Shown here one piece after another: positions 12,634-16,450 of a stretch of 33,363 nt of DNA. A program made the translations under genes and the position numbers. Numbering within the stretch: position 1 is the first letter of the stretch; the number at the start of each line of letters is the position of its first letter. The stretch is from an uncultured Pelagibacteraceae bacterium (GTDB lineage: Bacteria > Pseudomonadota > Alphaproteobacteria > Pelagibacterales > Pelagibacteraceae), in NCBI GenBank assembly GCA_902537845.1, contig CACBDC010000011.1, positions 1 to 33,363 of the forward strand, written 5' to 3'. The notes under the pieces were generated by a model. It was not told the origin of the DNA. It ran no database searches and saw only the letters and a program-made list of their open reading frames with translations.

Positions 12634-13401
12634 ATGAGTAAACCAGTAGTTATTTCAGATAAGAACTTAAAGTCTTTAAAAATAAAAAATAAAGTTAAAA
12701 AAATTTTTAAGAAAAAAGAAATTAAAAAAAATAATATTGTAATAGTTATTGGAGGTGATGGCTTTATGCTTCAAACCTTAAAGAAAAATAAAAAAACAAA
12801 CAAATTATTTTATGGAATTAATTCTGGGAATTATGGATTTTTAATGAACAAATTTTCGAAAAATCATTTAAAAAAAAATATTGATAATTCAAATATGATT
12901 AGTATTTCACCTTTAGAAATGACTGTATTCAATAAAAAAAAAACCAGGAAATGTTTAGCTATTAATGAAGTCTCAATTTTAAGACAAAGCAGACAAGCTG
13001 CTAATTTATCAATAAAAAATAATTCTAGTTTTATAATGAAGAAATTAGTTTCAGATGGCGTACTGGTTTCTACCCCAGCTGGAAGTACAGCCTATAATTT
13101 ATCAGTTCATGGGCCGATTTTAAGTTTGAACTCCAAAAAAATTTCTATTGCACCAATAAGTGCGTTTAGACCAAGAAGATGGTCTGGAAAAATAGTGAGC
13201 GAAAAATCAAAAATAACTATTACAAATTTAAATTCTTCAAAAAGACCTGTTAGTGCGGTTGCGGACAATGTAGAAATAAGAAATGCAAAAAAAATAATTA
13301 TAAAAGTTCAAAACAAAATAAGATTTAATTTACTTTACGATAAAAATAGTGGTTTACAAAAAAAAATAAAATTAGAGCAAATAAGAAAGGAAATTTTTTA
13401 G
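12634..13401 (+). CDS. nadK: NAD kinase
   Basis: Phosphorylates NAD to NADP. The catalytic GGDG is at 40-43 (VIGGDGFML), with INSGNYGFL (62-70), the conserved NE pair at 111-112 (AINEV) and DGVLVSTPAGSTAY (141-154). Length 255 matches short alphaproteobacterial NAD kinases. The ATG lies 8 bases after the 3' CCA of tRNA-Leu; its stop overlaps the convergent sulfotransferase stop by four bases. Confidence 0.95.
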   Translation: MSKPVVISDKNLKSLKIKNKVKKIFKKKEIKKNNIVIVIGGDGFMLQTLKKNKKTNKLFYGINSGNYGFLMNKFSKNHLKKNIDNSNMISISPLEMTVFNKKKTRKCLAINEVSILRQSRQAANLSIKNNSSFIMKKLVSDGVLVSTPAGSTAYNLSVHGPILSLNSKKISIAPISAFRPRRWSGKIVSEKSKITITNLNSSKRPVSAVADNVEIRNAKKIIIKVQNKIRFNLLYDKNSGLQKKIKLEQIRKEIF

Positions 13402-14435
13402 TTCTTAAGGTAATTATAAATTTCTATTGATTGCTCAATTTTGGTTTTATCAAAATAAAATTCATCTGATTTATATTCTTTAAAAGAGAAGTGCTTATCT
13501 CCTATATTATCAAACATTTCTTCCCCAATAAAATTTGAAATTCTTTTAAGTTCAAATTTAGTGTTTTTACATAATTGTTCATAATCAATAAATAAAATAT
13601 TTGGATTAGTTTTAAATTCTTCTTTTTTAATAAAATTATAAAAATTTATCCACTGATCTAACCAGTAATTTACATCATTATGTTCTGAAGCGCTTTTTTT
13701 TAAATCTTTAAAAATCATAGGCTTATGATTAAGACCAAATTCATGATGAACAAGATAATTCATATATTTTTTTGCAAAATTATCTTTTTTTTGTAAATTT
13801 GAAAAATTAATATTTTGTTTTAACAATGAAATTGAATGATCTAAAGGATTTCTGAAAGATAACAAAAATTTTGCTTTAGGAAATTTGTGTATTAAACTTT
13901 TTATTCTTAACAAGCTATTATTATTTTTACACAAATAATTAAATTTTTTGTATTTTACTAAACAATTTTTAATAAATAATTCATATAAATCTAAATTATA
14001 ATTATCTATTTGATGATATCTTAAATGATCTTTAAAAATATATTTTTCTGAGGTTTTCAAATTCCAAAATATTTCCTCAAATTGTTCTGGAGAATCAAGA
14101 TTAATCATCATTTTATCATTGTGTTTTCTTTCTATTGATTTTTTTGATTTCAAATATTTTGAGACAATATTCCAAATATTTGGACTGATAACAAAAGGCA
14201 TATCTCTATAAGTAAATGAAGCAAATTTTTTGGTATCATATATTGTATTTAGTAAAATAGTTGTCCCGGCTCTTGCCAGACCAGTTACATATATCTGATG
14301 ATTCATTTCAATTGATTTATTTTTTTTCTTGAATAAAAAATTTTCAACATCAAATAAAAGTTCTGGAATTATTTTATTTCCAATAATGGAGTAATGCAGC
14401 AGCTTAACTAAAAAATTATAATTATTATTGAACAT
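13398..14435 (-). CDS. PAPS-dependent sulfotransferase family protein
   Basis: Predicted cytosolic sulfotransferase. The 5'-phosphosulfate-binding loop is TGLARAGTTILL (51-62), and the 3'-phosphate-binding segment is FLLSFRNPLDHSISLL (190-205), with the conserved serine and arginine in place; the arrangement LARAGTT...SFRNP is typical of bacterial Sulfotransfer-fold proteins. There is no signal peptide or membrane segment. The length is 345 residues. The acceptor is unknown: glycans, lipids or small metabolites are all possible. It is divergent (39 bases) from an APS-kinase-like gene, which could provide its donor. It is strongly A/T-rich with many Lys/Asn/Ile codons, suggesting accessory status. 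Confidence 0.82.
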   Translation of the reverse strand: MFNNNYNFLVKLLHYSIIGNKIIPELLFDVENFLFKKKNKSIEMNHQIYVTGLARAGTTILLNTIYDTKKFASFTYRDMPFVISPNIWNIVSKYLKSKKSIERKHNDKMMINLDSPEQFEEIFWNLKTSEKYIFKDHLRYHQIDNYNLDLYELFIKNCLVKYKKFNYLCKNNNSLLRIKSLIHKFPKAKFLLSFRNPLDHSISLLKQNINFSNLQKKDNFAKKYMNYLVHHEFGLNHKPMIFKDLKKSASEHNDVNYWLDQWINFYNFIKKEEFKTNPNILFIDYEQLCKNTKFELKRISNFIGEEMFDNIGDKHFSFKEYKSDEFYFDKTKIEQSIEIYNYLKN

Positions 14436-14474: not shown

Positions 14475-14900
14475 ATGGCTAAAAAAATATTAGTAATGGG
14501 TTTACCAGGAGCTGGAAAAACTACTTTGAGTAAATATTTAGCTAAAATTATTAATGCAGTACAAGTAAATGCTGATGAAGTTAGAAAAAAAGCTAATGAT
14601 TGGGATTTTTCTTTAGAAGGTAGAAGAAGACAGGCAAAGAGAATGAAAGATTTGTCAAATTATTACATTTCAAAGGGAAAAAATGTAGTAGCTGATTTTA
14701 TATGCCCTACAAAGGCAACAAGAGATGATTTTGATGCTGATTTTTTAATCTGGGTTGATACAATTAAAAAGGGTAGGTTTGAAGATACTAATATTCTTTT
14801 TGAGCCACCAGAAAATTCAGATTTTAGAGTGACAACACAAGACGGAAAATATTGGTCAGAAAAGATAGCAAAAATAATATTGAAGGAAAAAGAGGTATAA
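14475..14900 (+). CDS. Adenylylsulfate (APS) kinase-like P-loop protein
   Basis: Short P-loop kinase that looks like the core of APS kinase (APS + ATP to PAPS). Seen: Walker A GLPGAGKTT (9-17), NADEVRKKANDWDFS (32-46), corresponding to the APS-kinase segment after the substrate-binding aspartate, then SLEGRRRQAKRM and VVADFICPT followed by IWVDT. At 141 residues it is shorter than E. coli CysC (about 200), so its specificity is uncertain; related adenylylsulfate-kinase-like proteins occur in marine phages and bacteria. It precedes the arylsulfotransferase-like gene by one base and is divergent from the sulfotransferase. No sulfate adenylyltransferase is in the window. Confidence 0.78.
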   Translation: MAKKILVMGLPGAGKTTLSKYLAKIINAVQVNADEVRKKANDWDFSLEGRRRQAKRMKDLSNYYISKGKNVVADFICPTKATRDDFDADFLIWVDTIKKGRFEDTNILFEPPENSDFRVTTQDGKYWSEKIAKIILKEKEV

Positions 14901-14901
14901 A

Positions 14902-16254
14902 GTGAATTTTGAGAAATTCTTATTTTCAAAGGTAAGCACTTGGGTTTTATTACTTGTGATAATTTTTTTTCTTATCTTCTCATTTTTTTTTGGGGCATTA
15001 GTCTTAAGAAGCGAGACTGCACAAAAAATTGTATTAATTCCTAAAAATATAAAAATTTTTTTTTCAGAAGAGTTAGATCTAGGAAATGAGACAGACAGAT
15101 TTGGAGATAGACAGGGTCTTAAAATTTATAAAAAAGATTCAAATTTATATGATCAGAAGGATTTTCTATTATTATCTAGATATTCAGGTGAGAAAAAAAG
15201 ATCTATTGTTGAATTAATAAGCTTGAGAAGTGGAGAAACTATTCATCAATGGACACCCAATTTTGAGGAAATTAACAAACTGTCAAAGATACCAGAAGAA
15301 GTAGTAAACTTTAAAAGAGATCATAACAATAGTAGATATCAAATGATACATCCCTACTTGATGTCTAATGGAGATCTATTTTTTCATTCTATTTATTATT
15401 CACCACTTATTAAAATTGATATTTGTTCAAAGGTTATTTCTACTTTAGATATGTTAACGCACCATAGTATAGAAGCGGATGAGGATGGACTATGGACACC
15501 AATTACTTATATCCCATCAAAGAATAATCCTGGTTTGGATGAAAGCAAAGGAGTTGGAAAATCATATTTTTATGATGATGGTATATTAAAAGTTAGCTTT
15601 GATAACAAAAAAATTTTCGAAAAGTCTTTTGTCGAAATCTTAGTTGAAAATAAATTATCTTATTTAATATTCGGTGGCAAAGATCCATCGAGAGACCCTT
15701 TACATTTAAATGACATACAACCTGTTCTTAAGTCAACAAAATATTTTAAAAAAGGAGACCTGTTTTTAAGTTTTAGAAATTTATCGATGATCATCCTTTA
15801 TCGGCCATCAGAAAATAAAGTCATTTGGTTTAAACAGTTTCCTTGGGAGTTACAGCATGATGTAGATATATTAGATGAGTCAAGAATATCAGTATTTAAT
15901 AACAACAGGCTGAGAAATAAATTCGATCAAAATAAAAAATATAATGATTTTATGATTTATGATTTTGAAAAAGATGAAATTAAATATGTTTTTAAGAAAG
16001 AATTTGAAGAATATAAAATACAAACAATTGGGGAGGGGCTAGGAGATTTATATAAAGATGGATCTATTTTTATAGAGGAGTCAAATTTTGGAAGAATATT
16101 GATGCTTGATAAAAATGGAGAAAAAATTTGGGAATATATTAATAGATCTAAAGACAATAATAAATTATATAGACTAAATTGGTCGAGAGTAATAAATTTG
16201 GATTTACAAAAATTTAATAAAGAATTAAATAAAAACAATGCTTGCAAAAAATAG
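14902..16254 (+). CDS. Arylsulfotransferase (ASST)-like protein, membrane-anchored
   Basis: ASST-family beta-propeller protein of 450 residues with one N-terminal membrane segment (about 12-35), so the bulk is predicted periplasmic. Family features: HHSIEADEDGLWTP (187-200), DPLHLNDIQPV (265-275), GDLFLSFRNLSMI (285-297), QHDVDILDESRISVFNN (318-334) and a last blade with FGRILMLDKNGEKIWEY (396-412). Characterised ASSTs move sulfo groups between phenols without PAPS. His268 and His319 look like the two conserved active-site histidines, but no histidine follows residue 319, so the transient sulfo-histidine of classical ASST may be missing. The start is GTG at 14902, one base after the preceding stop; the 3' end overlaps the next small gene by 17 bases. 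Confidence 0.78.
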   Translation: MNFEKFLFSKVSTWVLLLVIIFFLIFSFFFGALVLRSETAQKIVLIPKNIKIFFSEELDLGNETDRFGDRQGLKIYKKDSNLYDQKDFLLLSRYSGEKKRSIVELISLRSGETIHQWTPNFEEINKLSKIPEEVVNFKRDHNNSRYQMIHPYLMSNGDLFFHSIYYSPLIKIDICSKVISTLDMLTHHSIEADEDGLWTPITYIPSKNNPGLDESKGVGKSYFYDDGILKVSFDNKKIFEKSFVEILVENKLSYLIFGGKDPSRDPLHLNDIQPVLKSTKYFKKGDLFLSFRNLSMIILYRPSENKVIWFKQFPWELQHDVDILDESRISVFNNNRLRNKFDQNKKYNDFMIYDFEKDEIKYVFKKEFEEYKIQTIGEGLGDLYKDGSIFIEESNFGRILMLDKNGEKIWEYINRSKDNNKLYRLNWSRVINLDLQKFNKELNKNNACKK

Positions 16255-16450
16255 ATTATTTTATGTTACGATTTCATTTGTATTTTTGATTGAAGAAATT
16301 GCTAATGCTTATATTGGTCCTGGTTTAGCTTTAGGAACAGTAGTTATTTCTTTAGGCCTAGTAATACTTTTAGTATTTTTAATCGTAGCGATTTTATACT
16401 ATCCAGTAAAAAGATTAATAATAAAATATAAAAATAGAAATAAAGAATAA
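16238..16450 (+). CDS. Small AYIGPG-type secreted/membrane protein
   Basis: Conserved-looking 70-residue protein of unknown function. Residues 1-24 resemble a signal peptide ending in ANA (22-24), which would leave AYIGPGLALG near the mature N-terminus, followed by a single membrane segment (about 33-54) and a basic tail ending KYKNRNKE. Short proteins with AYIGPG motifs followed by a membrane helix and a YPVKRL-like basic segment are a recurring hypothetical family in proteobacteria. It overlaps the arylsulfotransferase-like gene by 17 bases in another frame, so the two are probably translated together and may act together. I cannot assign a function. Confidence 0.7.
   Translation: MLAKNRLFYVTISFVFLIEEIANAYIGPGLALGTVVISLGLVILLVFLIVAILYYPVKRLIIKYKNRNKE

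Follow-up and report, generated by a model that had tools for sequence, protein, structure and literature searches.

The window that we analysed is a stretch of 33,363 nucleotides from an uncultured Pelagibacteraceae bacterium. In it, the end of a gene for an ASST-like protein overlaps the start of a small reading frame with an AYIGPG motif. Is this small frame a gene, and if so, is its product a partner of the ASST-like enzyme, as the first-pass annotation proposed, or does it belong with something else? We will term the ASST-like protein A and the small protein S.

S and the ASST-like enzyme A

S is a membrane protein of 70 residues with an ATG start (16238..16450 on the + strand, from the list of open reading frames in the window). 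As A ends at 16254, the two genes share exactly 17 nt (16238..16254, + strand), and both the position of S and this overlap agree with the first-pass annotation. The features that it had described can also be seen in the sequence. All on the + strand, a predicted signal-like N-terminus (residues 1-24, 16238..16309) ends with ANA-YIGPG and is followed by the AYIGPG motif (residues 24-29, 16307..16324), a single hydrophobic span (residues 35-53, 16340..16396, mean KD 3.43), and, past Pro56 (16403..16405), a basic tail. An AlphaFold2 model of S (mean pLDDT 88, pTM 0.50) contains two helices, at residues 2-21 and 28-67. In an alignment of 47 rows, Y25, G27, P28, and P56 are invariant, the spacing from Tyr25 to the distal Pro is 31 residues in 47/47 rows, and the net charge over the 17 residues past that Pro is +3 to +10. 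By positive-inside reasoning, it is likely that only the short N-terminal tip of S is outside and that its basic tail is inside.

S matches nothing above the cut-off in Pfam or NCBIfam (the best E values were 0.13 and 0.015, respectively), and a search of plasmids with the S of one Ruegeria locus gave no match. The genome that contains the window (0.9 Mb, 75% complete) encodes one copy. Because homologues in several phyla keep the Tyr, the Gly, the Pro, and the distal Pro, S is not a chance reading frame; judging from this conservation, it is a genuine conserved gene.

A has 450 residues and a GTG start (14902..16254, + strand). It matches Pfam Arylsulfotran_2 (PF14269) with 117 bits, relative to a cut-off of 27, and its AlphaFold2 model (pLDDT 88) predicts an N-terminal membrane helix and then a beta-propeller. 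When the fold of this model was compared to known structures, the best match was Cpz4 (Z 27.8) and then E. coli ASST (Z 25.2-25.6); the next protein scored 21.2. These matches bear out the original description of A as ASST-like. (A sequence search of the PDB with the A profile returned designed propellers and no ASSTs.) A 2026 review (PMC13426309) gives His252, His356, Asn358, Arg374, and His436 as the catalytic or sulfuryl-binding residues of E. coli AST. From their order and from the H-x-N spacing, the counterparts in A would be H188 (15463), H268 (15703), N270 (15709), R292 (15775), and H319 (15856), which together span 15463..15858 on the + strand. They are kept in 80, 80, 80, 79, and 80 of 80 relatives, respectively. 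Judging from its model and its alignment, A has retained both the fold and the active-site residues of the PAPS-independent arylsulfate sulfotransferases (PF14269/PF05935).

A also contains a pair of Cys residues, C175 (15424-15426) and C448 (16243-16245, within the overlap with S), so that the pair spans 15424..16245 on the + strand. Both are present in 73 of 80 relatives, neither is present in 7, and one alone is present in 0; this joint presence or absence fits a disulfide in an extracytoplasmic protein. We also considered whether the C-terminal Cys is a mere by-product of the overlapping ATG of S. We rejected this idea because the Cys codon does not derive from the start of S (in the window, L012, and L013) and because the two Cys come and go together. 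Finally, a search of viral contigs for relatives of A gave 10 candidate stretches, of which 0 were confirmed.

Genes that travel with S

Two other genes next to A and S are relevant. T (13398..14435, - strand), which is divergent from the other three genes, encodes a PAPS-type sulfotransferase of 345 residues (PF13469, 50 bits, cut-off 27). In an alignment of 12 rows, G-x-x-R-x-G-T-T is found in most rows and R55, G57, R195, and S203 are invariant. We take G-x-x-R-x-G-T-T and R195-x7-S203 to be PAPS-site signatures. K (14475..14900, + strand), which is upstream of A, encodes an APS-kinase-like P-loop kinase of 141 residues (PF01583, 31.6 bits, cut-off 21.1). Its P-loop residues are invariant in 6 rows. 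As K scores just 31.8 against the NCBIfam apsK model, which is far below the cut-off of 138.7, its substrate is uncertain.

In many other genomes, S is followed by another membrane protein, which we will term M. Its short form has 115-138 residues and at least 2 hydrophobic spans; in other lineages, this is replaced by a second form, M2, of 240-254 residues. M matches no Pfam or NCBIfam family. No M adjoins the S of the window, where the next gene is on the opposite strand.

Within the family of the window, a search with S matched 10 of 197 genomes at E ≤ 0.01: 7 of these matches have an ASST next to them, another (L008) is a fusion, and the motif is missing from two (L009 and L010). Relatives of A were found in 15 of 297 family genomes, and in 14 of those 15 an AYxGPG-type reading frame overlaps the end of A (with the variants AYIGPA in L018 and AYIGLG in L025). 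The sole exception is G215, which has ASST relatives without S. In the complete genome G009, M and T are present with an S-like remnant, interrupted by a stop, directly upstream of M (the L124/L143 locus), and no PF14269 protein was found. G017 has K and has no match to A or S.

More broadly, a scan of contigs with an alignment of ASSTs returned 482 relatives, of which we analysed 80 named loci that are biased towards the A of the window. (A scan with the sequence of that A alone returned no relative.) The S profile matches 46 of the 80 loci; in 36 of these 46, S lies within 200 nt of the end of the match to A (35 on the strand of A). Thus, in these loci as in the 14 family genomes, S has the preference for ASST neighbours that the first-pass annotation expected; the lack of any such preference, which would have counted against its proposal, was not observed. 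The association with T is even tighter: T is found in 42 of the 80 loci, with S in all 42 and in 0 of the 34 loci without S (Fisher p = 2e-18, not corrected for kinship). M is found in 31 and K in 6. The figure of 34 is an upper one, as in L218 and L225 the contig stops close to A.

These genes are tightly packed. A and S overlap in 25 of the 35 named loci with S directly downstream of A, and the gap is negative for 17 of 27 S-M pairs and for 25 of 25 M-T pairs, although these latter gaps lean to small values because the start codon nearest the upstream stop was used. In six genomes (L229, L202/L251, L258, L261, L252, and L175), M and T form a single reading frame; the M part of these natural fusions has E values from 3e-15 to 1e-3.

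When the neighbours in 59 loci were sorted by family, A was found in 59, T in 54, S in 48 (as called), M in 25 and 4, and K in 6. Among these loci, no other family recurs except for a generic ABC ATPase in 7. In particular, no sulfatase family recurs among the neighbours.

The module is found in Pseudomonadota, Cyanobacteriota, Bacteroidota, Chlorobiota, and Nitrospinota. The carriers include Pelagibacteraceae, Prochlorococcus, Synechococcus, Rhodobacterales, Sphingomonadales, Chromatiaceae, Thiotrichaceae, Zetaproteobacteria, Nitrospina, Mucilaginibacter, other Bacteroidota, and Chlorobiaceae. (Two loci that are labelled as Alpha- and Gammaproteobacteria, L164 and L188, have an ASST that lies inside the Prochlorococcus group; they are mislabelled, contaminated, or transferred.)

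What happens when A and S are separated? The 34 loci with A and without S come from 28 genomes, and 25 of these 28 have S elsewhere in the genome. In the pieces of these 25 genomes that contain S, 24 of 26 places have T next to S, in most cases along with M. A is present in 8 of 26, which is low by design, as this set of genomes was chosen for A standing apart. We also searched 398 genomes from across the phylum that were not chosen for A. This gave 15 matches to S with E < 1e-16, all of them in the module: A is present in 13 and T lies within the same 3.2-kb piece in 14. The fifteenth is the window, whose T is about 1.8 kb away, beyond the piece. L135 and L142 have S and T with no A in the piece. 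Of the weak matches, L144-L150 have nothing of the module and were set aside as chance, and L143 is the M-T locus of G009. A search of the class with S gave 44 of 385 at E ≤ 0.05, and most of the weak matches are fused proteins, AYxDPG proteins, or chance.

In a tree of the ASSTs, rooted at the midpoint, both basal groups carry S, so we read S as ancestral with repeated separation from A. The idea that the presence of S marks a single clade of A was rejected: its labels change 14 times on the tree, as compared to a mean of 26 when they are shuffled.

As S stays with T and M when A is apart, and given the sample from the phylum, we view S-M-T as a tight core and A as its usual partner. S-M-T, usually with A and sometimes with K, is a compact and overlapping gene set, and the gene partnership is solid. 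S itself almost certainly belongs to the A-S-M-T module. The first-pass view of S as a partner of the ASST was therefore right about a strong neighbourhood, but it was incomplete: the most faithful partners of S are T and M.

A proposed sulfation relay and its rivals

If T uses PAPS, then this must be supplied. Among 30 family genomes, all 14 with A and S have matches to APS kinase, and 13 of the 14 have the K type, versus 1 of the 16 others (Fisher p = 2e-6, not corrected for kinship). The fourteenth, G054, has a strong PAPS_reduct match of CysD length and a 609-residue frame with an APS-kinase domain. Of the 30 genomes, the one that contains the window is alone in having a match to ATP sulfurylase (PF01747); there, at L231 (G000:C7), reading frames for a 161-residue APS-kinase-like protein and a 315-residue ATP-sulfurylase-like protein lie side by side. 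Thus 12 of the 14 genomes, including near-complete ones such as G003 (99%), have neither PF01747 nor a strong CysD match and show no known source of APS. K is often beside, or fused to (L284 and L112), a small HIGH-motif nucleotidyltransferase (GRWQPFHDGH); besides these two, the loci with both are L279, L283, L285, and L290-L292. A guess is that the two proteins are a minimal APS/PAPS-making pair, or else do something different. The pair also adjoins other metabolic genes.

We propose a self-contained sulfation module, A-S-M-T, to which K is an optional addition and in which S serves as a dedicated subunit in the inner membrane. PAPS would be provided by K or by another APS kinase. T, which M would anchor at the inner membrane face in most lineages, would use PAPS to sulfate a membrane or phenolic carrier. 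On the other side, the active-site His of A, a periplasmic enzyme tethered by its helix, would accept the sulfuryl group that the carrier brings, and A would then hand this group on to an acceptor beyond the cytoplasmic membrane. S would cross the membrane, its AYxGPG motif facing outwards and its basic tail facing inwards, and would link the T/M side to A. This relay between two membrane faces is modelled on Cpz8/Cpz4 of caprazamycin synthesis, and a carrier must link T and A. We give the whole two-step relay, with S (and M) holding T and A together, a probability of about 0.5; we infer the use of PAPS, the carrier, and the bridging role and topology of S. Several observations count against the relay: G009 has no A, G215 has an ASST and no S, K occurs in G017 without the module, 34 of 80 loci with A have no adjoining S, the window has no M, 12 of 14 family genomes with A and S lack a known APS source, and no gene for making a carrier recurs.

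The absence of a recurring carrier gene is in keeping with the use of a widespread membrane compound like a quinol, although it proves nothing. For example, the carrier might be a membrane-soluble aryl sulfate such as the sulfate ester of ubiquinol, menaquinol, or plastoquinol: T would charge it inside, it would cross within the S-M complex, and A would discharge it onto envelope glycans or lipids. We offer this identity for the carrier tentatively and consider it doubtful.

Another explanation is that S, along with M, serves to anchor or assemble the sulfotransferase side and nothing else, and that A is a frequent but independent neighbour with other substrates. This would account for S remaining with T, and mostly with M, when A is elsewhere, and for the S and T of L135 and L142; related AYxGPG or AYxDPG stretches are also fused ahead of other enzymes. 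However, S overlaps A and not T both in the window and in G277, which have T on the opposite strand. Also, both basal groups of ASSTs carry S, and the 25 genomes with A apart on which this explanation draws were picked for that arrangement. We consider it rather unlikely. The overlap with A could instead suggest that S helps A to fold or to insert into the membrane, as DsbL/DsbI do for E. coli AST. The strict pairing of the Cys residues in A is consistent with this, and E. coli AST has a known partner operon (PMC13426309). But S has no Cys, which rules out a role as a thiol oxidase; 34 loci with A have no adjoining S; and sets of S-M-T exist away from A, all of which makes a helper of this kind very improbable.

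It is also conceivable that T and A sulfate separate substrates and that the cassette is a bundle of genes for sulfation of the envelope, with S as a structural peptide. No carrier gene recurs among the 59 loci and the supply of APS is not visible in most family members, which speaks for this reading. Still, the overlapping A-S-M-T order across distant phyla and the co-segregation of S and T point to one machine, and we view separate substrates as improbable. Last, as S is short and starts inside another gene, it might be a non-coding by-product of the overlap. Given its conservation at the protein level across several phyla, its fixed spacing of 31 residues, and its copies far from A, there is next to no chance of this.

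The module ties a large branch of the ASST-like proteins to a PAPS-type sulfotransferase and to two undescribed membrane families. It occurs in some of the commonest bacteria of the ocean (SAR11 and Prochlorococcus), and it predicts that its carriers have sulfated envelope molecules. We know of no report that these organisms make them. As far as our searches go, S and M look like undescribed families, and we found no description of the S-M-T-A module in open-licence papers. A paper on the O-chain clusters of SAR11 (PMC11898729) contains none of the sulfation terms that we searched for. According to the 2026 review (PMC13426309), little is understood of what bacterial aryl sulfotransferases do physiologically, and no natural substrates of theirs have been established. 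The module offers an answer to where bacterial ASSTs obtain their sulfate, and this answer can be tested with knock-outs. If the quinol relay is true, then it names the physiological donor of ASSTs, and ATP-driven export and lipid-linked sugars would be joined by one more route for carrying an activated group through a membrane.

Comparison with known systems

Some proteins resemble S in having a signal-like start, an AYxGPG or AYxDPG motif, one hydrophobic span, and a basic stretch, and they match the S profile. Unlike S, they are joined to an enzyme, and there is no match to A or T at those loci. In L008/L123 and L126, the domain that follows an AYIGPGAG stretch is type I phosphodiesterase-like (PF01663 for L126). 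In L125 and L127, AYIDPG or AYIDPA precedes a domain like those of CDP-glycerol glycerophosphotransferases (PF04464 for L127). There are also separate small proteins with a sister motif of the AYLDPGTG type (L046, L047, L052, L054, and, as AYLDGGTG, L043), and no sulfation module was seen with these. In L037 (G553), a small AYLGLG protein like that of G188 is beside an opposite-strand protein with a double His that resembles that of ASSTs.

AssT of E. coli CFT073 is like A in its ASST fold (Z 25.2-25.6), its active-site residues, and the partner genes alongside, and its disulfide may have a parallel in the Cys pair of A. In contrast, its partners are DsbL/DsbI, whereas S, without Cys, is not a Dsb protein. 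At the N-terminus, moreover, the E. coli enzyme has a beta-sandwich domain (PMC13426309) and A has a membrane helix.

The closest parallel is the synthesis of caprazamycin. As described in PMC4257720, the PAPS-dependent Cpz8 makes a phenolic sulfate, which is used by the PAPS-independent ASST Cpz4. Both systems combine a PAPS-type sulfotransferase with an ASST-type enzyme (in the module, as one gene set, with T in 42 of 80 loci with A), and it is Cpz4 that the fold of A matches best (Z 27.8). The systems differ in the carrier, which for caprazamycin is a pyrone in the antibiotic pathway; the module has no recurring carrier gene, and a type III polyketide synthase, which would be a gene for an aryl carrier, is not among the recurring families in the 59 loci. 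Further differences are the membrane tether of A, the link of T to a membrane protein, and two additional proteins, S and M. By this analogy, the module would work like the two-step sulfation by Cpz8 and Cpz4, and we do not count it as a member of that system.
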